Below the pieces are notes generated by a model, which was given only the letters and a program-made list of their open reading frames with translations, ran no database searches and had not been told where the DNA came from. A stretch of DNA of 29,333 bases from a virus. The position numbers and the translations under genes were made by a program. Location of the stretch: the IMG/VR virus record IMGVR_UViG_3300037485_000805, positions 1-29,333 of that record. One strand, written 5' to 3'. Shown here piece after piece: positions 4,545 through 27,006 of the stretch (position 1 is its first letter; each line of letters begins with the position of its first letter).

Positions 4545-5378
4545 ATGAGTATAGTATTTAAAGCATCAGATCATAGTTACACAAGTATAGATGATTCTGA
4601 AAATATATCTTGGACAAGTGTTACTAGTTTAGTATCACATTTTAAAGAACCATTTGATTCTGCAAGTGTGGCTAAAAAATGTGCAAAAAATTTAAAGTCT
4701 AAATGGTTTGGATTAACACCTGAAGTTATACAAGACTTATGGAAATCTGAGTCTGAACGGGCAATGAATCTTGGTACTTTTTATCATAACCAAAGAGAGA
4801 GTGACTTATGTAATCTTGCCTCTATAGAAAAAGAAGGTATACCACTTCCAATATATGTACCTCAAGAAACTAATGGTATTAAACAAGCACCTAATCAAAA
4901 GTTAACTGATGGTATATATCCAGAACATATGGTATATTTAAAGTCAGCAAGTATATGTGGCCAATCAGATTTAGTTGAGATAGTGAATAATAGAGTACAT
5001 ATAATAGATTATAAAACTAATAAAGAAATCAAGTTAGAAGGATTTAAGAATTGGGAAGGTATGACTAAAAAAATGCTTGTCCCTGTGGATCATTTAGATG
5101 ATTGTAACTTCTCACATTATGCTTTACAGTTGAGTATTTATATGTATATTATATTAAAACATAATCCTAAACTAATAGCAGGTACAATGTATTTACATCA
5201 TATATTATTTGAATCATCTGATATTGATAAATGGGGTTATCCAGTTACTAAATATAATGACAACGGAGATCCTATAGTATTAGAAGTTATTCCACTTAAA
5301 GTACCTTATTTAAAAGAAGAAGTAATTAGTATTATTAATTGGTTACATGAAAACAAACATAACCTTGAAAAAAAATGA
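4545..5378 (+). CDS. PD-(D/E)XK nuclease, RecB/Cas4-like
   Basis: A 277-aa protein with the motifs of the RecB-type PD-(D/E)XK superfamily in order: GTxxH at residues 77-81 (GTFYH), an acidic residue in GQSDLVE (Asp142), DYKTNK with Asp155 and Lys157, and the QxxxY motif in ALQLSIYMYI (Gln195, Tyr199). These residues would bind the metal ions for DNA cleavage. It lies directly upstream of the terminase genes, where crAss-like phages typically carry such a nuclease, suggesting processing of replicated or branched DNA before or during packaging. Its 3' end overlaps the next gene by 4 nt (ATGA). No helicase domain or Fe-S Cys set is seen, so it is a stand-alone nuclease. Confidence 0.82.
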   Translation: MSIVFKASDHSYTSIDDSENISWTSVTSLVSHFKEPFDSASVAKKCAKNLKSKWFGLTPEVIQDLWKSESERAMNLGTFYHNQRESDLCNLASIEKEGIPLPIYVPQETNGIKQAPNQKLTDGIYPEHMVYLKSASICGQSDLVEIVNNRVHIIDYKTNKEIKLEGFKNWEGMTKKMLVPVDHLDDCNFSHYALQLSIYMYIILKHNPKLIAGTMYLHHILFESSDIDKWGYPVTKYNDNGDPIVLEVIPLKVPYLKEEVISIINWLHENKHNLEKK

Positions 5379-12207: not shown

Positions 12208-13824
12208 ATGGCAACTCCAGTTTTAAACAATGGTATATTCCTCCGTGACACAGCATACAATGCATCGTCCCACGTAGACTCATACCACTTAACAAACATG
12301 TTGAAGAATGCAGAACCTATGGATCTGGGCCCAGTAGACCTTTGGGCTATGGCACAGAAAGTAGAAATGCCTCTTTATCAAATGTCCTCTTTTGGAGGAA
12401 AAAATGTAATCATGGTTGACAATGCTCGTGGTGAGTACAAATGGCAGACTCCAGTCTCTATTGATTTACCATACATCATTGAAGATATTGAACCAGCTAA
12501 TGATTTCAAAGGTGTAGATGGTTCTACATTTAAAATCAAGATTAACAGACGTGAGTTTGGTCATGGTGATATCTTAACATATGACAAATACAATGGTGTA
12601 GAGATGTATGTTACACAAGAGGATATTCTTCCAATTGGTGATGGATTTATCTATACTGTTCAGTTAGTTAACAATGATAACTACAAATACTTAGATAATA
12701 AGTACTTGTCTAACGGTACTAAGATATTCCGTAAAGGTTCAGCAAGAGGTGAGTATGGTGAAAGATTCTCTGACATCATCACTAATGCAGGATTCCGTGA
12801 ATTCTACAACTATGTTGGAGGTGCTGAGGCTCACGTACATTATTCTATTTCATCACGTGCAGATTTGATGATCAAAGGTGGAATGAATGCAGATGGAACA
12901 GTTCCTGTAACTGAAATCTGGAGATCATTTAACAAAACTATTGATCCATCAATTACCTCATTAGAGGATATGGTTAAAGTTATGGGTAAAGATTCTGTAA
13001 AGAAAGCTTTTGATAACGGAGATCTTTCAAGAACTTTCTTGACAAATATGGAAGCTGCTCACCTTTCTAAGGTAGCATCTGATATTGAGACTTACTTAAT
13101 GTGGGGTCAAGGAGGTAGAGTACGTCAAGATGGTCCAGATGATATTAGATTATCAGTGGGTCTTTGGAAACAGTTAGATAACTCTTTCAAACGTATTTAC
13201 AATAAGAATAACTTTACACTTGATTTATTCCGTGGAGAGATCTACAACTTCTTCAATGGTAAAGTTGAATTCCAAGGTCCAGATCCTAAGCGTTCTCTAG
13301 TAGTACAAACAGGTATGGGTGGAATGCGTTTAGTGAATGAAGCTATCCGTAGAGAAGCAGTTTCTTCTGGTCTTTTGATTCAAGCAGCTGACATAGGTGC
13401 AATCACTGGTAAAGGAATGGACTTGAATTTTGGATTTGCTTACACTTCTTATGTTATTCCATTCTTGGCTAACGTAAAATTTGTATTGAATCCAGCATTT
13501 GATAATGTTCATACAAATGATATTGAAAACCCAATCATTGATGGTTTCCCATTATCTTCTTATTCATTCATTATCTTTGATATCACTGATAACACAAATG
13601 ATAATATCTACTTATTGAAACTTTCTTGGGATAACCAATTGAAGTGGTGGTACCAAAATGGTACTATGGACTACATGGGACGTACTCAAGGATTCCAGTC
13701 TTCTGGACAATTCAATGGATACCGTGTAATGATGTCTCAAACAATGCCTGCTATTTGGGTTAAAGATCCTACTAAGGTTCTTAAGATTGTTATGAGAAAT
13801 CCAATTACTGGTGGATCATTCTAA
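12208..13824 (+). CDS. Major capsid protein (HK97-fold expected)
   Basis: A 538-aa protein in the canonical position after portal and scaffold. The N-terminal part contains MLKNAEPMDLGPVDLWAMA and later RGEYKWQTPV and YGERFSDIIT, which match my recollection of crAss-like capsid proteins. The extended region about 90-140 looks like the E-loop, and the C-terminal half carries LTNMEAAHLSKVASDIETY and FQGPDPKRSL blocks. Length is slightly above the roughly 490-510 aa common in the group. Codon use differs from neighbours: Arg is mostly CGT, and TTC, TAC and AAC are frequent, a sign of very high expression. A strong hairpin terminator follows 15 nt after its stop. Confidence 0.88.
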   Translation: MATPVLNNGIFLRDTAYNASSHVDSYHLTNMLKNAEPMDLGPVDLWAMAQKVEMPLYQMSSFGGKNVIMVDNARGEYKWQTPVSIDLPYIIEDIEPANDFKGVDGSTFKIKINRREFGHGDILTYDKYNGVEMYVTQEDILPIGDGFIYTVQLVNNDNYKYLDNKYLSNGTKIFRKGSARGEYGERFSDIITNAGFREFYNYVGGAEAHVHYSISSRADLMIKGGMNADGTVPVTEIWRSFNKTIDPSITSLEDMVKVMGKDSVKKAFDNGDLSRTFLTNMEAAHLSKVASDIETYLMWGQGGRVRQDGPDDIRLSVGLWKQLDNSFKRIYNKNNFTLDLFRGEIYNFFNGKVEFQGPDPKRSLVVQTGMGGMRLVNEAIRREAVSSGLLIQAADIGAITGKGMDLNFGFAYTSYVIPFLANVKFVLNPAFDNVHTNDIENPIIDGFPLSSYSFIIFDITDNTNDNIYLLKLSWDNQLKWWYQNGTMDYMGRTQGFQSSGQFNGYRVMMSQTMPAIWVKDPTKVLKIVMRNPITGGSF

Positions 13825-13839
13825 TATATCAAAAACAAG

Positions 13840-13872
13840 TGAGAGGGACTTATTGTCCTTCTCATTTTTTTA
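13840..13872 (+). terminator. Intrinsic terminator after the capsid gene
   Basis: TGAGAGGGAC pairs with GTCCTTCTCA (10 bp, one G-T pair) around TTATT, followed by a T-rich run (13865-13876). It begins 15 nt after the MCP stop. No good promoter is visible before the next ATG at 13907, so read-through for downstream genes and 3' end protection of the capsid mRNA are both likely. Confidence 0.88.
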
Positions 13873-13906: not shown

Positions 13907-14923
13907 ATGGAAGCAACAAATTTTACAATGGTTGAAACAAGAGAAACACGTAAAACTGCAGTATCTATCAAACCATATTTTGACAATTCAGTATCTAACA
14001 TGGGATTAGAATCTTATGGACTATCTCTTTTTGATGGAGTAACTCATACAGAACAATTAGCATGTTTAGAAAAAAATGGTGTAATACAATATGTCACAGG
14101 ACTAAATGAATTTGCACCGGAGATTAGACTTATGACTGTTGAACAAAGAGAGGCAAAAGTCAAAGAAATAAGAACAGCAGTTGCAGAATTAGAAAGAGAA
14201 TTAGCAGCTAATGTACTTGAAATTACAGATCCGTTATTTTGGAATAATGTAAAATTATTAAGACCTGATAACGCTGACTTCTGGAATAAGATATATTTAT
14301 CATGTGGTAATGAGCCTTTATATTTAAATGCACAAGATCCATTTGATAGAATTAAATTATATGCAATTGAAGCTGGAGGATTTTCATTAGTAGCACGTAG
14401 CTATGATGAAGCAAGATCTAAAGCAGTGCCGCCAAAATTTTATCTTGATAAAGCTCAAGAAACAGCAGGAGCTAAAACTGAGATTAAAAAATTACGTAAC
14501 AGAGCACTTGCTGAACTTCAAAAATTATTTGATAAAAATAGCACTAAATTATTCTACATTGCAAAAGCAGTAGATACAGCTAGTGTACAATATAAAAAAC
14601 ATACACCAAATGATGTTATTTATGATAATATGGATAAGCATATAAATGGTGAAGGGTCAGAAGGTAACAAAGAAAGAGCGGCACAAGGTTTCTTAACTGC
14701 TGCAGCTTTAGACATGGAATCATTAAAAATTAAAGCAATTGTAAAAGATTCCATATTTTTTAAGTATATTATAAATAAGTCAGATGGTCATATCTATCAT
14801 ACACAATCAAGTGCAATGTTAGGTAGAAACACATCAGATGTAATTGAGTATTTAAAGAACCCATTAAATGAAGATGTTTTAAAGGATCTTAATACAAAGA
14901 TTGAAAAATTGTGGAACTCTTAA
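13907..14923 (+). CDS. Conserved unknown, probable virion or head-assembly protein
   Basis: A 338-aa, soluble, mostly helical protein. A coiled-coil stretch at about 78-105 (REAKVKEIRTAVAELERELA) is followed by DPLFWNNVKLLRPDNADFW and a region with ARSYDEARSKAVPPKFYLDKAQE. The second half is Lys-rich and helical. It sits immediately after the capsid gene, separated by a terminator, and heads the run of small basic proteins. I do not recognise a named family. Position and lack of signal peptide suggest a structural or assembly role such as an internal capsid protein. Confidence 0.6.
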   Translation: MEATNFTMVETRETRKTAVSIKPYFDNSVSNMGLESYGLSLFDGVTHTEQLACLEKNGVIQYVTGLNEFAPEIRLMTVEQREAKVKEIRTAVAELERELAANVLEITDPLFWNNVKLLRPDNADFWNKIYLSCGNEPLYLNAQDPFDRIKLYAIEAGGFSLVARSYDEARSKAVPPKFYLDKAQETAGAKTEIKKLRNRALAELQKLFDKNSTKLFYIAKAVDTASVQYKKHTPNDVIYDNMDKHINGEGSEGNKERAAQGFLTAAALDMESLKIKAIVKDSIFFKYIINKSDGHIYHTQSSAMLGRNTSDVIEYLKNPLNEDVLKDLNTKIEKLWNS

Positions 14924-14935
14924 ATTTAAAATAAA

Positions 14936-15463
14936 ATGGCAACAACAAAAATGAAAAATTATGCAAAGGCTGGACCTGGTGATAAGGTTCCTGGTTCAGA
15001 ACAAGGTAAAGGTTCTAAAATTGGAAGAGTACTTGGTATAGTAGGTCCTTCTATTGGAGCTGCAGCAGTAGCAATTAAAGCTGGTATGGATAAAAGGAAA
15101 GAAAAAAGAGAAATAAAAAAAGGAATAAAAATAGAAGTAGACAAAAAAGCTATTAATATTAAAGATTCAAATAATCCTATTAACTATCCTAAATCAGGTA
15201 CTACAACTACAGGCAGTGGATCAGTATCTAAAGCAAAATATGGTACAAGTGTTGGTGCTACTAAAATGAATAAAATGAAATATAAAACAGGTGGTATGGT
15301 AAATGCCAATGCAAAAATTACTGCTGCTAAAGCTGCAACAGGTAGTGTAGGTGGAATTAGTAAAGCAATTTCTAAAGGTGCAGTTAAGTCTACTTCTCCT
15401 AAAGGAAAAGTAGGGGGTACATCAACTGCACCAAAATGTGCATCACCAAAAAAAACTAAATAA
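14936..15463 (+). CDS. Lysine/glycine-rich basic protein of the small-protein cluster
   Basis: A 175-aa low-complexity protein, strongly basic (Lys-rich) with many G, A, S and T. The start MATTKMKNYAKAGPGDKVPG and a short hydrophobic stretch (about 30-45: RVLGIVGPSIGAAAVAIKAG) are followed by KRKEKREIKKGIK and later YKTGGMV (about 116-122). The hydrophobic stretch may be one marginal membrane-active helix. The basic composition suggests DNA contact or packaging inside the capsid. It shares the TGG motif with three neighbouring proteins and ends 1 nt before the next gene. No family recognised. Confidence 0.65.
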   Translation: MATTKMKNYAKAGPGDKVPGSEQGKGSKIGRVLGIVGPSIGAAAVAIKAGMDKRKEKREIKKGIKIEVDKKAINIKDSNNPINYPKSGTTTTGSGSVSKAKYGTSVGATKMNKMKYKTGGMVNANAKITAAKAATGSVGGISKAISKGAVKSTSPKGKVGGTSTAPKCASPKKTK

Positions 15464-15464
15464 G

Positions 15465-15683
15465 ATGGAAAAAGTAAAAGTACAAGCTTATATTAAAGAC
15501 AATCTTACTGGTAAATATGTACTTAATGTTGTAACTACAACTCCAATAGTTGAATTACCAACAGAAGAAATTGTTGAAGAAATAGTAGTTGAAGAAGTTG
15601 TAGCAAATGCTGAAGAATCAGCTAATGAAAATGTTACAATTGAAGCTCCTGTTAAAAAAGCAAAGGCTAAGAAGAAAAAATAA
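15465..15683 (+). CDS. Small protein with acidic centre and polylysine tail
   Basis: A 72-aa protein. It starts MEKVKVQAYIKDNLTGKYV, has an acidic Val/Glu-rich middle (EEIVEEIVVEEVVANAEE) and ends in a Lys/Ala tail (KKAKAKKKK). The ATG at 15465, one base after the previous stop, is preferred to an in-frame ATG at 15438 that lies within the upstream gene. The charge-segregated layout suggests a flexible binding protein, perhaps a partner or counter-ion for the basic proteins around it. No function is recognised. Confidence 0.6.
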   Translation: MEKVKVQAYIKDNLTGKYVLNVVTTTPIVELPTEEIVEEIVVEEVVANAEESANENVTIEAPVKKAKAKKKK

Positions 15684-15689
15684 TCAATC

Positions 15690-15839
15690 ATGGCTATAGC
15701 TAAGAAAGATAAGAAATGGATGCAGAAAGCAGTAAACCCTAAACATGAGGGTTTCTGCACTCCTATGTCTAAACCTACTTGTACGCCTAAGAGAAAAGCA
15801 TTAGCTAAAACATTTAAAGCAATAGCTAAAAAAAGATAA
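15690..15839 (+). CDS. Very small basic Cys-containing protein (49 aa)
   Basis: A complete 49-codon frame in the space between two neighbours: 6 nt after the previous stop and 2 nt before the next ATG. It reads MAIAKKDKKWMQKAVNPKHE, then a GFCTPMSKPTCTPKRK centre with two Cys, and ends KAIAKKR. The KKWxxKA start and CTPM-x-PTCTPRRKALAxTFK-type end are familiar from small proteins of Bacteroidetes and marine phages that sit beside capsid genes, although function is unknown. An antisense frame over this region is a shadow. Confidence 0.72.
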   Translation: MAIAKKDKKWMQKAVNPKHEGFCTPMSKPTCTPKRKALAKTFKAIAKKR

Positions 15840-15841
15840 TT

Positions 15842-16123
15842 ATGGCAAAATCTCCAGCATGGCAAAGAAAAGAAGGCAAAAATTCTACAGGTGGATTAAA
15901 TGCTAAAGGAGTAGCAAGTTATAGAGCAGCTAACCCAGGTAGTAAACTTAAAACAGCTGTAACTACTAAACCTTCTAAACTTAAAGCAGGTAGTGAAGCT
16001 GCAGGGAGACGTAAAAGTTTCTGTAGTAGGATGAGTGGAATGAAGAAAAAACTAACAAGTGCAAAGACAGCTAGTGATCCTAACTCAAGGATTAATAAGT
16101 CTTTAAGAAAATGGAACTGTTAA
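15842..16123 (+). CDS. DUF6321-like small basic protein
   Basis: A 93-aa protein with the recognisable pattern AWQRKEGKNSTGGLNAKG, then SYRAANPGSKLKTAV, RRKSFCSRMSGMKKKL and DPNSRINKSLRKWNC at the end, which I associate with DUF6321, a family widespread in marine and Bacteroidetes phages and bacteria. It is strongly basic with two Cys and no membrane segment. Function is not established; small size, charge and position in the late operon suggest DNA binding in the virion. It follows the 49-aa gene by 2 nt and precedes another small gene by 12 nt. Confidence 0.8.
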   Translation: MAKSPAWQRKEGKNSTGGLNAKGVASYRAANPGSKLKTAVTTKPSKLKAGSEAAGRRKSFCSRMSGMKKKLTSAKTASDPNSRINKSLRKWNC

Positions 16124-16135
16124 AAATTATATATC

Positions 16136-16354
16136 ATGGCAAAATTAGGATGCGCTAAATGTGGCGGACAAAAAATGGAAACAGGTGGGTCAATAATTGG
16201 TGGACCACTATACGGTAATAACCCAAGAACACAACAAGGACGTATGCTTAAAACTGGTGGTGTATCTACATCTGCTCCAGTTCAAAAAGGATGTCCTCCG
16301 GGATATGTAAGAAAATCATCAGGAATAGGATGTACTCCTATGGGTACAAGATAA
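16136..16354 (+). CDS. Small Gly/Cys-rich protein with two TGG motifs
   Basis: A 72-aa protein. The N-terminus carries CAKCGG (a CxxC knuckle, Cys6 and Cys9), followed by KMETGGSIIGG and MLKTGGVST, and a C-terminal CPPGYVRKSSGIGC pair. Four Cys in two pairs could bind one metal or form disulfides. No family is recognised. It has the same TGG motif as neighbours and a short spacer to the next ATG (18 nt). Confidence 0.65.
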   Translation: MAKLGCAKCGGQKMETGGSIIGGPLYGNNPRTQQGRMLKTGGVSTSAPVQKGCPPGYVRKSSGIGCTPMGTR

Positions 16355-16372
16355 ATTATAATATATTAAGTT

Positions 16373-16747
16373 ATGAAAAATAAAACTACAAAAAGTGCTT
16401 TAATAGTATTTAATGATAATAAAGTAACAGCTAATAAAAAAGCTGATATTGCTATGAAGTCATTTAAAAAGTCATTACCTAAAGCACAGTATGGTATAGG
16501 TAGTACAACACCATCTGGGCAAATTGTAAAAACTCCAGAAGATGTTGCTAAGATTAAAGCTATGCAAAAAAGACTTTTACAAAAACCTGTTGATGTCTAT
16601 ACTAAACCAATAGTATCTAAACCAGTACCAACTCAAAAAACTGGTGGTGCAACTAAAGCAACTAAGTTTGCAGCATTAGCTCCTCCATACAACAAAGCAA
16701 CTGCAGCTGATAGAATTGCTGGTGCTAAAAAAAATAAAAAGAAATAA
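16373..16747 (+). CDS. Lysine-rich small protein with C-terminal FAALAPPYNKAT motif
   Basis: A 124-aa, strongly basic protein without Cys. It contains AMQKRLLQKPVDVY, then TQKTGGATKATKFAALAPPYN and a TAADRIAGAKKNKKK end. The FAALAPPxxKxTxADRIAGAKK block looks like a conserved terminal peptide that I associate with small proteins of related phages. The KTGG is shared with the upstream small genes. Likely a virion-internal or DNA-associated protein; function unknown. Confidence 0.65.
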   Translation: MKNKTTKSALIVFNDNKVTANKKADIAMKSFKKSLPKAQYGIGSTTPSGQIVKTPEDVAKIKAMQKRLLQKPVDVYTKPIVSKPVPTQKTGGATKATKFAALAPPYNKATAADRIAGAKKNKKK

Positions 16748-16750
16748 GAC

Positions 16751-17449
16751 ATGCAAAACAGTGTACTTACTATAAAGATTAAACAGCGTCTAAATAAATT
16801 AGATAGTCAAGACTATGACAACATTGAATGTTGGCAAGTAGTAGAGGCATTTAATAAAGCTCAAGTTGAGTGGACTAGAAGACAACTTCATGGTATGAAC
16901 ATTGTTAAAGAAGGTGATGAGCAATCTACTAGAAGAATAGATGACTTACAAGTATTGTTAAATACTGAACCTTTAAATGTTACAAATCAACAATTATTTT
17001 ATTCAGGACCAATTCCAGAAAATTATTTACAATGGAAAAGAGTTGATGCTTATGCAAAAAATGAATGTTGTAATGACAGACGCATGGTTATTTATCTTGT
17101 AGAAGAAGCTAACCTAAATCAATTATTAAGAGATGATGCAAAAAAGCCAAGCTTTGAATGGGCAGAAACTTTTGCTACTCTTAAAAATAATTTTGTAAAT
17201 ATTTACACTAATGAAGATTTTCTTATTAGTAGTTCTGAACTTACATACTATAGACAACCAGTAAGAATTGAAGTACAGGGATGTACCGATCCTTATACCG
17301 GGCAAACAACTTTAAACAATGTACAATGTGAGTTTAAAGATGATATAATTGAAATAATAATAGATGAAGCAGCAAGTATACTTGCAGGAGATATTGAGTC
17401 AGGTAATCAATTCTCTAGAGGATCAGAAGGTGCAGAACGCAATAATTAA
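16751..17449 (+). CDS. Putative neck/ring (head-tail connector) protein
   Basis: A 232-aa protein with an N-terminal helical part (DNIECWQVVEAFNKAQVEWTR), a middle beta-rich part (YLQWKRVDAYAKN, RRMVIYLVEEANLNQLL) and an ELTYYRQPVRIEVQG strand pair. It ends with a helix EIIIDEAASILAGDIES and a polar QFSRGSEG tail. This mix of helices and sheet, with an EAASILAGDIE-type final helix, resembles connector proteins that stack below the portal in podoviruses and crAss-like phages. It lies between the small-protein cluster and the Dps-like gene, with 3 nt and 5 nt spacers. Exact ring number is not assignable. Confidence 0.55.
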   Translation: MQNSVLTIKIKQRLNKLDSQDYDNIECWQVVEAFNKAQVEWTRRQLHGMNIVKEGDEQSTRRIDDLQVLLNTEPLNVTNQQLFYSGPIPENYLQWKRVDAYAKNECCNDRRMVIYLVEEANLNQLLRDDAKKPSFEWAETFATLKNNFVNIYTNEDFLISSSELTYYRQPVRIEVQGCTDPYTGQTTLNNVQCEFKDDIIEIIIDEAASILAGDIESGNQFSRGSEGAERNN

Positions 17450-17454
17450 AAAAA

Positions 17455-17922
17455 ATGGAACAATCTAGAATGTTAAAAAGAAATCCTGAGCCTACAAAAA
17501 CCATTAGTAGACCTCAACCTAATACTGGAGTTGGTGGTAGTTCATTAGATACTATGACAGCAGCTTGTGCTACAGAAATGATGAATGCTGCAATAAGTTT
17601 TCATAAGCTTCATTTAAAAGTTACAGGAGATGGATCTTTTGCAGCACACACAGCTCTTGGGTCATTCTATGAAGGACTACATGATCATGCTGATACATTA
17701 GTTGAAGGATATCAGGGTACGGCTGAAAAGATATTAACTTATACTGAAATGCCTATTAGAACTTTAGATACAGTAGCAGATGGTGTAGGATATCTTAGAG
17801 ATATGTATAATTCAATTAACAAATTACAAGGTATGATGCCTTATTCTGAAATTGTAAATAACTTAGATCTTGTAAAAGATTCTATCAATTCTACTAAATA
17901 CAAACTTTTATTCTTAAAATAA
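17455..17922 (+). CDS. Dps-like ferritin-fold protein (DUF5856-like)
   Basis: A 155-aa protein with an unstructured N-terminus (1-30, with RNPEPTK and GVGGSS) and four predicted helices. Residues about 43-90 read SFHKLHLKVTGDGSFAAH, then ALGSFYEGLHDHADTLVEGYQG, matching the Dps helix A/B signature. His53, His65, Asp80 and Glu84 keep spacings of 12, 15 and 4, exactly those of the Listeria Dps ferroxidase ligands H31, H43, D58 and E62; the fifth ligand (D47) corresponds to Gly69. Dps proteins oxidise and store iron or bind DNA. In this late operon the protein is more likely virion-associated or a structural re-use of the fold. A 61-nt AT-rich gap follows. Confidence 0.75.
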   Translation: MEQSRMLKRNPEPTKTISRPQPNTGVGGSSLDTMTAACATEMMNAAISFHKLHLKVTGDGSFAAHTALGSFYEGLHDHADTLVEGYQGTAEKILTYTEMPIRTLDTVADGVGYLRDMYNSINKLQGMMPYSEIVNNLDLVKDSINSTKYKLLFLK

Positions 17923-17959: not shown

Positions 17960-17983
17960 TATTTATAAATTAAAAAAAACACA

Positions 17984-19651
17984 ATGGCTTATTTTAATCA
18001 CGCATTTAAGAAGACATTCCTTGCAACAGGACGGTCACTTAACACAACAGTAACTTTGCTTGATGGCACAGTTGCTCCAGCACAAACCACTGATGGTTTC
18101 TTAACTACTTCTGGTTTACCAACTTATGTATTGAACACATTATCTACTCTAGGAGAAAATATCTGGGGTTCTTACTACAGTGGATATATTGGATACTTTG
18201 ATCCAAAAACTAACTTATCTTTAGGAAGTCCTGACGGATGTTGTAATGTAATGCTTGCAGGTTCTGCAATTTATTCTAATGACAAAATTGGTCCTTTCCA
18301 CGGAGGTTATGTTGAGACTAACAAGTCTAAGATGATCAATCCTAAGTATGTATCACGTTTCTACACAGTAATACCATGTGAGCCAACAAATGAAGTACTT
18401 CACGTTGGTTCAACATTCTGGACTGCGGGTGGTGGTATTATTAATTGGAGTACTTCAGGTGGTCCAATTAATGGACAAACTCCAAACTTAGTTAATGCTA
18501 TTGTTGAATTAACAGGTGGTGCTGGAATAGGTGCAACAATTGAAATTACAACTAATGGAATGGGTGCAGTTACTAGTTGGAGCTTTGTTCAAGCAATTGG
18601 TAAAGGATATGAGATTGGTGATATTTTAACAGTACCTGGTGATGGTTCAACATTTGAGTTTGAAGTACTTGATGTTACTACTGCTAATGTAGATCCAATT
18701 ACAGGATCAGGTGGTGTTAACTGTTGTAAAGAATTTATGTGTGGTGAAACTTATTCATTACGTATTGATATTAAAGGTTCTCCTGCTTTACGTTACTTGA
18801 ATCACAATGCATACTATATTGCTGAAGCTTACACAGGATGTTGCCCAGCAGGTTCAATTGCACCAGTTGCTGTTGATTCTACTGAAGTATATATCTTATG
18901 GGCTAATGCAATTTTACGTTACCCAGTAGTAAACCCATTTGTACAGATTATTATACAAGATGAGGCTGGTGTACTTTGGTATGCTCCAGGAACTTCTGCA
19001 GCTGATTTGATTGCTGTAGGTGGTGATACTTGGGATAACTATGTATCTCCAGGACACGTAGATGGTGCATGTGCAGGTATGATATTTAATGGTGCTTATG
19101 TTGATACTAAATTTGGTGATTGTACATTCCAATTATCTGATTTCTATGAAAAAGAACCAGTTAGATTATATGCTTCTGAAGTAGACTTAAACGGTGATCC
19201 ATGTACATTTGATGGAATCTGTGTAGTTCATGAGTGTTTAGGTTCACAAGCAAATGGTTTAGGAGAAACAATCTTACGTGACTTAACATTGTCAGAATCT
19301 TATAGACAAAACTTCTTACATTCTGATTTCCGTATCCGTGAGATTACTCAAGGAAACCAAATTGTATCTGCAATTAACCGTAATGCATTATACTATCAAT
19401 CATATTTACAACATAGTGTTCCACGTCATAATAACCCAAGTGGTACATTTGATGCTGATCAATACTTGTTACAAGTTGTAGCAACAGATTTAACTAATCT
19501 TATTGCATTCAATCAAGCTACTTCATTTTGGTTAGACAACTGTGGTGTATGTGAAATTGAAAACTTTAGTTGTGATACTAAATGTGATGTCCCAGTTGAA
19601 TTTCCTCCACTTTCAGTGAAAGGAGAGAGACCAGGTCCAGAACTGTTTTAA
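17984..19651 (+). CDS. Abundant virion structural protein (capsid auxiliary, fibre or tail candidate)
   Basis: A 555-aa protein starting MAYFNHAFKKTFLATG. It is rich in G, T, Y and Cys, including paired Cys (GCCNVM, VNCCKEFMCG, TGCCPAG) and a Cys-rich C-terminus (DNCGVCEIENFSCDTKCD). Residues about 165-228 hold an inserted beta domain with GKGYEIGDILTVPGDG, a GxGYxxGD(x)LTVPG motif of phage structural proteins. Codon use resembles the capsid gene (mostly CGT for Arg, many TTC, TAC and AAC), unlike its neighbours, indicating high expression. The gene has its own long AT-rich leader and is closed by a strong terminator. I recognise it as a conserved phage structural protein but cannot say whether it decorates the head or builds the tail. 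Confidence 0.65.
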   Translation: MAYFNHAFKKTFLATGRSLNTTVTLLDGTVAPAQTTDGFLTTSGLPTYVLNTLSTLGENIWGSYYSGYIGYFDPKTNLSLGSPDGCCNVMLAGSAIYSNDKIGPFHGGYVETNKSKMINPKYVSRFYTVIPCEPTNEVLHVGSTFWTAGGGIINWSTSGGPINGQTPNLVNAIVELTGGAGIGATIEITTNGMGAVTSWSFVQAIGKGYEIGDILTVPGDGSTFEFEVLDVTTANVDPITGSGGVNCCKEFMCGETYSLRIDIKGSPALRYLNHNAYYIAEAYTGCCPAGSIAPVAVDSTEVYILWANAILRYPVVNPFVQIIIQDEAGVLWYAPGTSAADLIAVGGDTWDNYVSPGHVDGACAGMIFNGAYVDTKFGDCTFQLSDFYEKEPVRLYASEVDLNGDPCTFDGICVVHECLGSQANGLGETILRDLTLSESYRQNFLHSDFRIREITQGNQIVSAINRNALYYQSYLQHSVPRHNNPSGTFDADQYLLQVVATDLTNLIAFNQATSFWLDNCGVCEIENFSCDTKCDVPVEFPPLSVKGERPGPELF

Positions 19652-19720: not shown

Positions 19721-20263
19721 ATGGCAAATCATGTTCTAAGTTTAGAAGTTCCTACAGTAATGAACACATGTATACTATCAATTAATGATGCTAGTATTTA
19801 TGCAACTAATGTTCCTTTAACTTGCCCTACACTTAATGTTACTGTACCAGGTTATGGCTACTCTATTCAATTAGATGTAATTGAAAATTTTAGTGCAACC
19901 TTAACTGCATGTGATTTACAGATACAAGTCACAGGATGTGGTGAGCAATATGGTGAACTACCAGATGGTATTTACATTATTAAATATAGTGTATCTCCAA
20001 ATGATTTAGTATATGTAGAGTATAATCATTTAAGAATTACTAAAGCACTTAATAGATATAATGTTGCTCTTTGTAATTTAGATCTAGCCGCTTGTGAGCC
20101 ACCAGCTAAAGTGCAAGAGCGTTTAGAAAAATTAAGAATGATTAGGATGTATCTTGATGCAGCTAAAGCAAAAGTTGAATTTTGTCTTGAACCTCAAAAA
20201 GGTATGACCTTATATAATTACGCAATCAAACTTTTAAATAAATTTGACTGTAAAACTTGTTAA
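19721..20263 (+). CDS. Conserved structural-region protein with beta N-half and helical C-half
   Basis: A 180-aa protein. Residues 1-110 are beta-rich with several Cys (TVMNTCILSI, PLTCPTLNVTVPGYGYS, ATLTACDLQIQVTGC) and GYGYS and YGELPDGIYII turns. Residues about 125-180 are helical with ERLEKLRMIRMYLDAAKAKVE, then FCLEPQKGMTLYNYAIKLL. This pattern (DAAKAKVE-x-KGMxLYxYAxKLL) recurs in Bacteroidetes phage structural regions as I recall. It begins 12 nt after the terminator and leads into the Cys-rich small protein. Role unknown; an adaptor for the accessory proteins that follow is plausible. Confidence 0.62.
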   Translation: MANHVLSLEVPTVMNTCILSINDASIYATNVPLTCPTLNVTVPGYGYSIQLDVIENFSATLTACDLQIQVTGCGEQYGELPDGIYIIKYSVSPNDLVYVEYNHLRITKALNRYNVALCNLDLAACEPPAKVQERLEKLRMIRMYLDAAKAKVEFCLEPQKGMTLYNYAIKLLNKFDCKTC

Positions 20264-26421: not shown

Positions 26422-27006
26422 ATGAGTAAAGAATTTAGAGTACCAGATGTAACAGCTCCAAGGTTTAGACAAGAAGTAGTTAATATTATTGATAAAAAAT
26501 ACTTTAAAAGTTTTAGAGAAAAATATCCAAAGTATAATGATATAACTGAAGCACAAATTAGAGTAATCATTAAAAGTTTTAATGAAACTTTTTGGGAAAC
26601 TGTAATTGAAACAAGAGATGGTGTACAGTTACCAGAAGGATTAGGTTCAATTTTTATTGGAACATGTGAAAGAGCAAAAGGTAATAATGTAGATTATGCT
26701 AAATCAAAAAAATATGGTGTTAGTGTAAGTAATAATAATTGGGAAACAGATGGTAAACTTGCTAAAATATTTTATACAAGTTATTCAAGTAAATATAAAT
26801 TCACATTTAGAGAGTGTTGGGGTTTTGTAGCTTGTAGAAATTTTAAAAGAGCGGTTGCTAAGGCATATCCAGAAAATTGGACAATGTATATACAAGTTGA
26901 CCCACATAAAAAATTAAGAAAGTTGTATACAGCAATTAGTCTTAAAAACAAAAGACAAAAAGAATTAAATGTACAACTTAATACTTATAATGAATTTGAC
27001 TTATGA
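26422..27006 (+). CDS. IHF/HU-like protein (second), probable neck/ring component
   Basis: A 194-aa protein. Residues about 12-85 are HU-like: a helix with RFRQEVVNIIDKKYFKSFRE, an insertion KYPKYNDI, the helix TEAQIRVIIKSFNETFWET and a strand pair VQLPEGLGSIFIGTCE (GLGSIFIG is the family's GLGxF turn). The rest is Lys/aromatic-rich with a Cys-containing FRECWGFVACRNFKRAV stretch and a helical end. crAss-like phages carry an IHF-type gene next to tail-tube and stabilization genes, as here. It may be a ring protein built on the IHF fold rather than a DNA-bending factor. It overlaps the next gene by 4 nt (ATGA). Confidence 0.65.
   Translation: MSKEFRVPDVTAPRFRQEVVNIIDKKYFKSFREKYPKYNDITEAQIRVIIKSFNETFWETVIETRDGVQLPEGLGSIFIGTCERAKGNNVDYAKSKKYGVSVSNNNWETDGKLAKIFYTSYSSKYKFTFRECWGFVACRNFKRAVAKAYPENWTMYIQVDPHKKLRKLYTAISLKNKRQKELNVQLNTYNEFDL

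Follow-up and report, generated by a model that had tools for sequence, protein, structure and literature searches.

The DNA analysed here, a single stretch of 29,333 nucleotides (positions 1 to 29,333 of IMG/VR record IMGVR_UViG_3300037485_000805; hereafter the window), is crAss-like phage DNA, as seen from its crAss-type major capsid protein and its tail-barrel ring proteins. The major capsid gene lies on the plus strand at 12208-13824 and its product matched PHROG 11589 and, in tblastn searches, Leptolyngbya phage Lbo-JY46 (3e-52) and gut crAss-like phages; the window also encodes TerL and portal. Downstream on the same strand, at 16751-17449, is the gene for a crAss-like tail-barrel ring protein, the AlphaFold2 model of which (pLDDT 82.8) matched 7qoj_D, a ring protein from the tail barrel of phiCrAss001, with a Foldseek E-value of 6e-12 and a Z score of 17.6 over 210 residues. 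Only 5 bases separate the stop codon of the ring gene from the ATG of the gene under study, which occupies 17455-17922 on the plus strand and encodes a protein of 155 amino acids related to Dps. It is followed on the same strand by a gene for a 555-aa protein at 17984-19651 that is syntenic in the clade to which the window belongs, and by a gene for a 180-aa protein at 19721-20263 that is conserved in this clade and in its sister clade, both as judged by comparing loci. A preliminary description of this DNA had placed the Dps-like gene in a virion operon, and this is borne out by the ring gene that adjoins it upstream and by a gene order that is kept across loci. It had also placed the gene between ring proteins and an abundant structural protein. 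What remains of this is a single ring gene immediately upstream, the other ring-like genes following about 9 kb further on. An abundant structural protein at 17984-19651 is unsupported; this gene gave no sequence match in the PDB. Profile searches of the PDB with the neighbours at 13907, 17984 and 19721 yielded nothing useful, and the genes at 27003 and 27674 gave weaker profile matches to cr106_1 gp040 and to the tail tubular protein of cr106_1.

The first 27 residues of the Dps-like protein (17455-17535, plus strand) form a tail that is predicted to be disordered and has a net charge of +3; across the clade the net charge of this tail ranges from -2 to +5 and is positive in most relatives. 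Residues 28-155 (17536-17919) make up a ferritin-like four-helix core, with helices at residues 30-55, 61-90, 107-127 and 131-152 in the model. Within this core four residues that are picked out both by their invariance and by the alignment register with Dps occupy the places of Dps metal ligands. These are His53 (codon 17611-17613; H51 in E. coli Dps and H31 in Listeria Dps), His65 (17647-17649; H63 and H43), Asp80 (17692-17694; D78 and D58), and Glu84 (17704-17706; E82 and E62). In the alignments Gly69 (17659-17661) occupies the position of the fifth ligand (D67 and D47). The distances from H53 to H65, from H65 to D80, and from D80 to E84 are 12, 15, and 4 residues, respectively, so that both the exact Dps spacing and the replacement of the fifth ligand by Gly69, as first read from the sequence, were confirmed on the open reading frame.

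When the protein was compared with profile libraries it was found to match Pfam DUF5856 (PF19174) with an E-value of 5e-12 and 47.1 bits against a gathering cut-off of 34.6, and PHROG 858 with an E-value of 5e-16. PHROG 858, which is annotated as a starvation-inducible (Dps-type) regulator, was also matched by 56/56 relatives. The expected relationship in HMM searches therefore held for DUF5856 and did not reach the cut-off for the family of Dps itself: the window protein had no match over the cut-off to PF00210 (Ferritin), for which two genomes of the clade scored 14-16 bits against 24.5, and it had no match in NCBIfam. Alignment of the DUF5856 profile with a profile of 8 bacterial Dps proteins by hhalign gave a probability of 93.5, an E-value of 2e-7 and a score of 48.4, while the scores of 20 column-shuffled controls had a mean of 10.6 and a maximum of 16.8. 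In this alignment H53, H65, G69, D80 and E84 stand opposite H51, H63, D67, D78 and E82 of E. coli Dps. A profile built from close relatives only aligned with Dps more weakly (probability 53) but in the identical register. Searching the PDB with the single sequence returned only marginal Dps rows, with E-values of 0.07 and worse, whereas a search with the profile reached HP-NAP at 9e-4.

The conservation of the ligands was then compared at two distances. Among 57 distinct close relatives H50, H53, H65, D80 and E84 never vary, position 69 is G in 37 and N in 20, and Leu54, at the site of the Trp that comes after the first ligand His in Dps, is present in 57/57. In a set of 15 divergent DUF5856 proteins with 18-31% identity to the window protein, 3 of which are near-identical Ackermannviridae proteins, just five columns other than M1 are invariant, namely H53, H65, D80, E84 and G88. 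This set was drawn from T2, RB49, a Klebsiella Pseudotevenvirus, Kuttervirus, Limestonevirus, small environmental phages, P19250A, two huge phages (635 and 642 kb), and a gut crAss phage. By a hand estimate, which ignores the kinship of the rows and the general tendency of His, Asp and Glu to be conserved, the chance that all four ligands fall among five random invariant columns of about 120 is roughly 6e-7. Because the ligands are invariant in the 57 close and the 15 divergent relatives and stand in the register of the Dps profile, their spacing is not a matter of chance. The H-H distance of 12 is, however, not kept throughout the family: Kuttervirus members have a shorter one, and the two huge phages have one residue more. 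The fifth-ligand position is G, D, E, Q or R in the divergent members. That this ligand is missing in the window protein and variable across DUF5856 suggests, as far as sequence can tell, a reduced second iron site. Among the members from T2 and RB49 are the rI.-1 genes of T2 (L171:2965-3351) and RB49 (L172:2995-3393), which lie beside the lysis inhibitor gene rI; both products are DUF5856 proteins that keep the four ligands, and that of T2 also has Asp at the fifth position.

AlphaFold2, run with 56 relatives, predicted a four-helix ferritin fold. The pLDDT averaged 82.9 for the whole chain; it mostly exceeded 90 in residues 30-150 and was below 50 in the tail of residues 1-27. The four-helix bundle anticipated for this protein is thus found in the model, and in a comparison with solved structures Dps and ferritin proteins filled the top rows, the best being M. 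smegmatis Dps2 with a Z score of 16.0 and an rmsd of 2.3 over 126 residues. Since Z scores of up to about 13 can reflect a common arrangement among helical bundles, the claim of a ferritin fold rests on the Z score and the sequence evidence together. Foldseek ranked E. coli Dps first among solved structures but at an E-value of only 3e-3, and among predicted structures it returned other viral proteins at 7e-6 with several Dps-annotated proteins lower in the list. In the model helix B is continuous from residue 61 to 90, so that H65 is 15-19 residues away from D80 and E84, and its distance to D80 along the helix axis comes to about 22 A. With H65 and D80/E84 this far apart on one helix, the four ligands cannot converge in the monomer model. 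Convergence within the model had been expected, but the site of Dps forms between two subunits; going by this secondary-structure geometry, the four ligands could come together only at a dimer interface of the Dps kind. An intrasubunit site of the bacterioferritin type was rejected, as the Glu/ExxH pattern of such a site is absent from the sequence. The BC helix is absent too, there being no helix between residues 91 and 106 of the model.

The likeness to bacterial Dps (E. coli, Listeria, and H. pylori NAP) lies in the ferritin fold and in H, H, D and E being in register at equal spacing. Like E. coli Dps, the window protein has an N-terminal tail that is predicted to be flexible and is basic here, although not in every relative. 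It differs from bacterial Dps in falling below the PF00210 cut-off, with about 13% identity, in lacking the BC helix in the model, in having Gly for Asp at the fifth ligand, and in lacking the Trp after the first ligand His, which is invariant in 8 Dps proteins. With the DUF5856/PHROG 858 proteins of other phages (rI.-1 of T2 and RB49, Vi01_092c, and ORF78 of LIMEstone1) it has in common the four invariant ligands and an aligned four-helix core, and it differs from the other DUF5856 proteins by its basic N-terminal tail and its fixed place in a crAss-like virion operon.

When loci carrying the protein were compared, the order of ring gene and Dps-like gene was found in 81/81, a total to which the window itself and some near-duplicates contribute. 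The gene for the 555-aa protein came next in 77/81, the remainder mostly ending there, and the major capsid gene was detected upstream in 76/81. Two MAG contigs had the identical gene order and are likely phage contigs. Each of the long genomes of the clade (114-126 kb) carried exactly one copy (8/8). The median dN/dS of the Dps-like gene was 0.16, equal to that of the ring gene. The sister clade, which consists of Lbo-JY46 and eight relatives, has the ring gene but no Dps-like gene beside it, and the next large gene mostly follows the ring gene within about 10-30 bases. These eight loci were found with the Lbo-JY46 major capsid protein as query, whereas the Lbo-JY46 ring protein as query found none. 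In the seven sister-clade records that were searched whole, no DUF5856 or ferritin match over the cut-off was found elsewhere either. The contrast between the two clades implies either a gain or a loss of the gene on one branch. In one sister-clade contig (L183:12299-13112) a LAGLIDADG-like open reading frame separates the ring gene from the following gene, just where the window's clade has the Dps-like gene, which indicates that this site accepts insertions.

These comparisons bear on the suggestion, made when the gene was first noticed, that the fold is re-used structurally, that is, that a non-catalytic ferritin fold serves as an assembly or decoration part beside the ring protein or the following protein. 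The position of the gene directly behind a tail-barrel ring gene and the loss of the fifth ligand would fit such a role. A purely structural role would, however, leave unexplained why no residues of DUF5856 are better conserved than the four metal ligands, and the sister phages have the same ring gene and following genes without a Dps-like gene. Structural re-use is disfavoured because the ligands are the most strictly conserved residues and because the sister phages build this operon without the gene, and we consider it improbable.

The gene product is therefore probably a phage antioxidant and not an accident of annotation. In Dps, which assembles as a dodecamer around an iron core, a site between two subunits oxidizes Fe(II), favouring H2O2 as the oxidant, and thereby removes the fuel of the Fenton reaction. 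From this chemistry we infer a two-subunit site and iron oxidation for the window protein as well: two subunits related by a twofold axis would hold iron between them, one contributing His53 and His65 and the other Asp80 and Glu84, and Fe(II) would be oxidized at this intersubunit site with H2O2 or O2, such that hydroxyl radicals are not formed near the phage DNA. As the fifth Dps ligand and the Trp are missing, the site may be weaker than that of Dps or may bind another metal. The position in the operon suggests late co-expression rather than packaging, and the protein would be made together with the virion proteins.

Whether such a protein may also be found in the particle can be judged from its relatives. 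ORF78 of LIMEstone1 is a DUF5856 protein (8.8e-29) and so is Vi01_092c, to which Sajous1 gp217 is identical in sequence. ORF78 has been confirmed in the virion by mass spectrometry with 3 peptides and 28% coverage (PMC3296691), and gp217 was detected with 10 spectra in CsCl-purified virions, where the authors recognised it as a ferritin-like protein (PMC10892097); peptide counts were low in both studies and the Sajous1 authors warn of contamination (PMC10892097, PMC3296691). The virion location proposed earlier for the window protein is in this way supported through relatives only (LIMEstone1 ORF78 and Sajous1 gp217; PMC3296691, PMC10892097), and no proteomics of phages of the window's clade was found in the literature. 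These two Ackermannviridae proteins resemble the window protein in belonging to DUF5856, in being encoded in a late structural gene cluster, and in being detected in virion preparations; they differ in that their virion has a contractile tail and in being 117 aa long, with no tail extension and a shorter A-B loop. Taking these relatives together with the fold and the ligands, we consider it slightly better than an even chance that the window protein is both an active DUF5856 miniferritin and virion-associated. The fold and the ligands are observed, while activity, oligomeric state and presence in the virion would follow by analogy. The protein would then most likely be in or on the particle, probably as a minor internal cargo, and its targets would be DNA replicated late and DNA already packaged; it might also work when the next infection begins. 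If so, oxidative protection would be part of the load of the crAss-like virion. A more far-reaching form of this reading, which we hold only tentatively, is that the miniferritin is a fixed cargo of the crAss-like virion, beside the DNA or in the tail barrel, and is delivered with the genome; the phage would in that case bring its own iron-oxidizing DNA protection into the host.

The Sajous1 authors proposed that iron mediates entry and later found that neither TonB nor FeoB was needed (PMC10892097). Applied to the window protein, such a Ferrojan horse mechanism would have the protein hold iron on the tail and help the particle to use an iron-uptake receptor of the host. That it was proposed for a relative speaks for it (PMC10892097), but hosts deficient in TonB or FeoB were infected as well as the wild type (PMC10892097), and the window protein has no fibre-like part, its immediate neighbour being a barrel ring protein and no recognised fibre. 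We regard this mechanism as very improbable.

It is also conceivable, although rather unlikely in our judgement, that the protein is an active antioxidant of the late infected cell that is not packaged, where it would bind up free iron as the cell dies, protect replicated DNA and burst size, and stay behind in the lysate. This is the published reading for other Dps-like enzymes of phages, which are known in Gratiaviridae and other gut phages (PMC8008677) and in Lactobacillus phages (PMC6669764), and host dps and catalase are induced in infection by phage YerA41 (PMC7354516). Moreover, the DUF5856 members of T2 and RB49 adjoin rI and tk, outside virion clusters, and the putative DpsA of the gut crAss phage cr106_1 sits among tRNA genes, which means that a DUF5856 protein is not always a virion protein. 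Against this stand the detection of two relatives in purified virions and the place of the window gene within a virion operon, where it starts 5 bases after the ring gene and keeps this position behind it in 81/81 loci. The Crassvirales DpsA in question (cr106_1 gp105, a phiCrAss001-type annotation) resembles the window protein in a weak DUF5856 match and in keeping H, H, D and E, and differs from it in its location among tRNA genes, in having the classical HW motif and Asp at the fifth ligand, and in an identity of 18%.

Dps-like proteins of phages, their annotations in crAss-phages, and one ferritin-like protein from Vi01-like virions were already known. According to the sources searched, what is new is the fixed place of the gene behind the tail-barrel ring gene in a crAss-like clade, the contrast in its presence and absence with the sister clade of the Leptolyngbya phage, and the recognition of the four ligands as the invariant core of DUF5856, with rI.-1 of T-even phages included. 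The literature search gave no mention of DUF5856, and the text of the phiCrAss001 atlas mentions neither Dps nor ferritin. A Pfam family without an assigned function, which includes the T-even orphan rI.-1, is thereby tied to Dps chemistry through four residues that can be tested. The crAss-like phages also provide a natural comparison: one clade always has the gene after the tail-barrel ring gene, and its sister clade has the same operon without it.

Several observations were made on the rest of the window. A promoter scan gave as many sites as were found in shuffled sequences, and the junction of the ring gene with the Dps-like gene showed no terminator-like hairpin; one of 13 pairs followed by a T-run is present at 13837-13867, just after the major capsid gene. 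The stretches before the start codons at 17445-17457 and 17965-17984 are A-rich and have no Shine-Dalgarno motif. Starts of this kind are usual in Bacteroidota, and they hint at a host in this phylum; the collection names and the hosts of relatives point to a freshwater origin of the phage. At 4545-5378 there is a match to PHROG 298 (exonuclease) at 3.5e-20 and a weak match to a CRISPR/Cas-associated PHROG. The 93-aa protein encoded at 15842-16123 resembles the C-terminal 80 or so residues of many long PHROGs without annotated function (727, 3477, 30733, 10346 and others), and by sequence it seems to be a free-standing version of a domain that usually ends larger proteins. Finally, when the window was compared with a close relative (L002), most genes had 96-100% protein identity, whereas those at 14936, 15438, 15842 and 16373 had 72%, 68%, 90% and 53%, respectively, which suggests that 14936-16747, ahead of the ring gene and behind the gene next to the major capsid gene, is a cassette that has been swapped or evolves fast.
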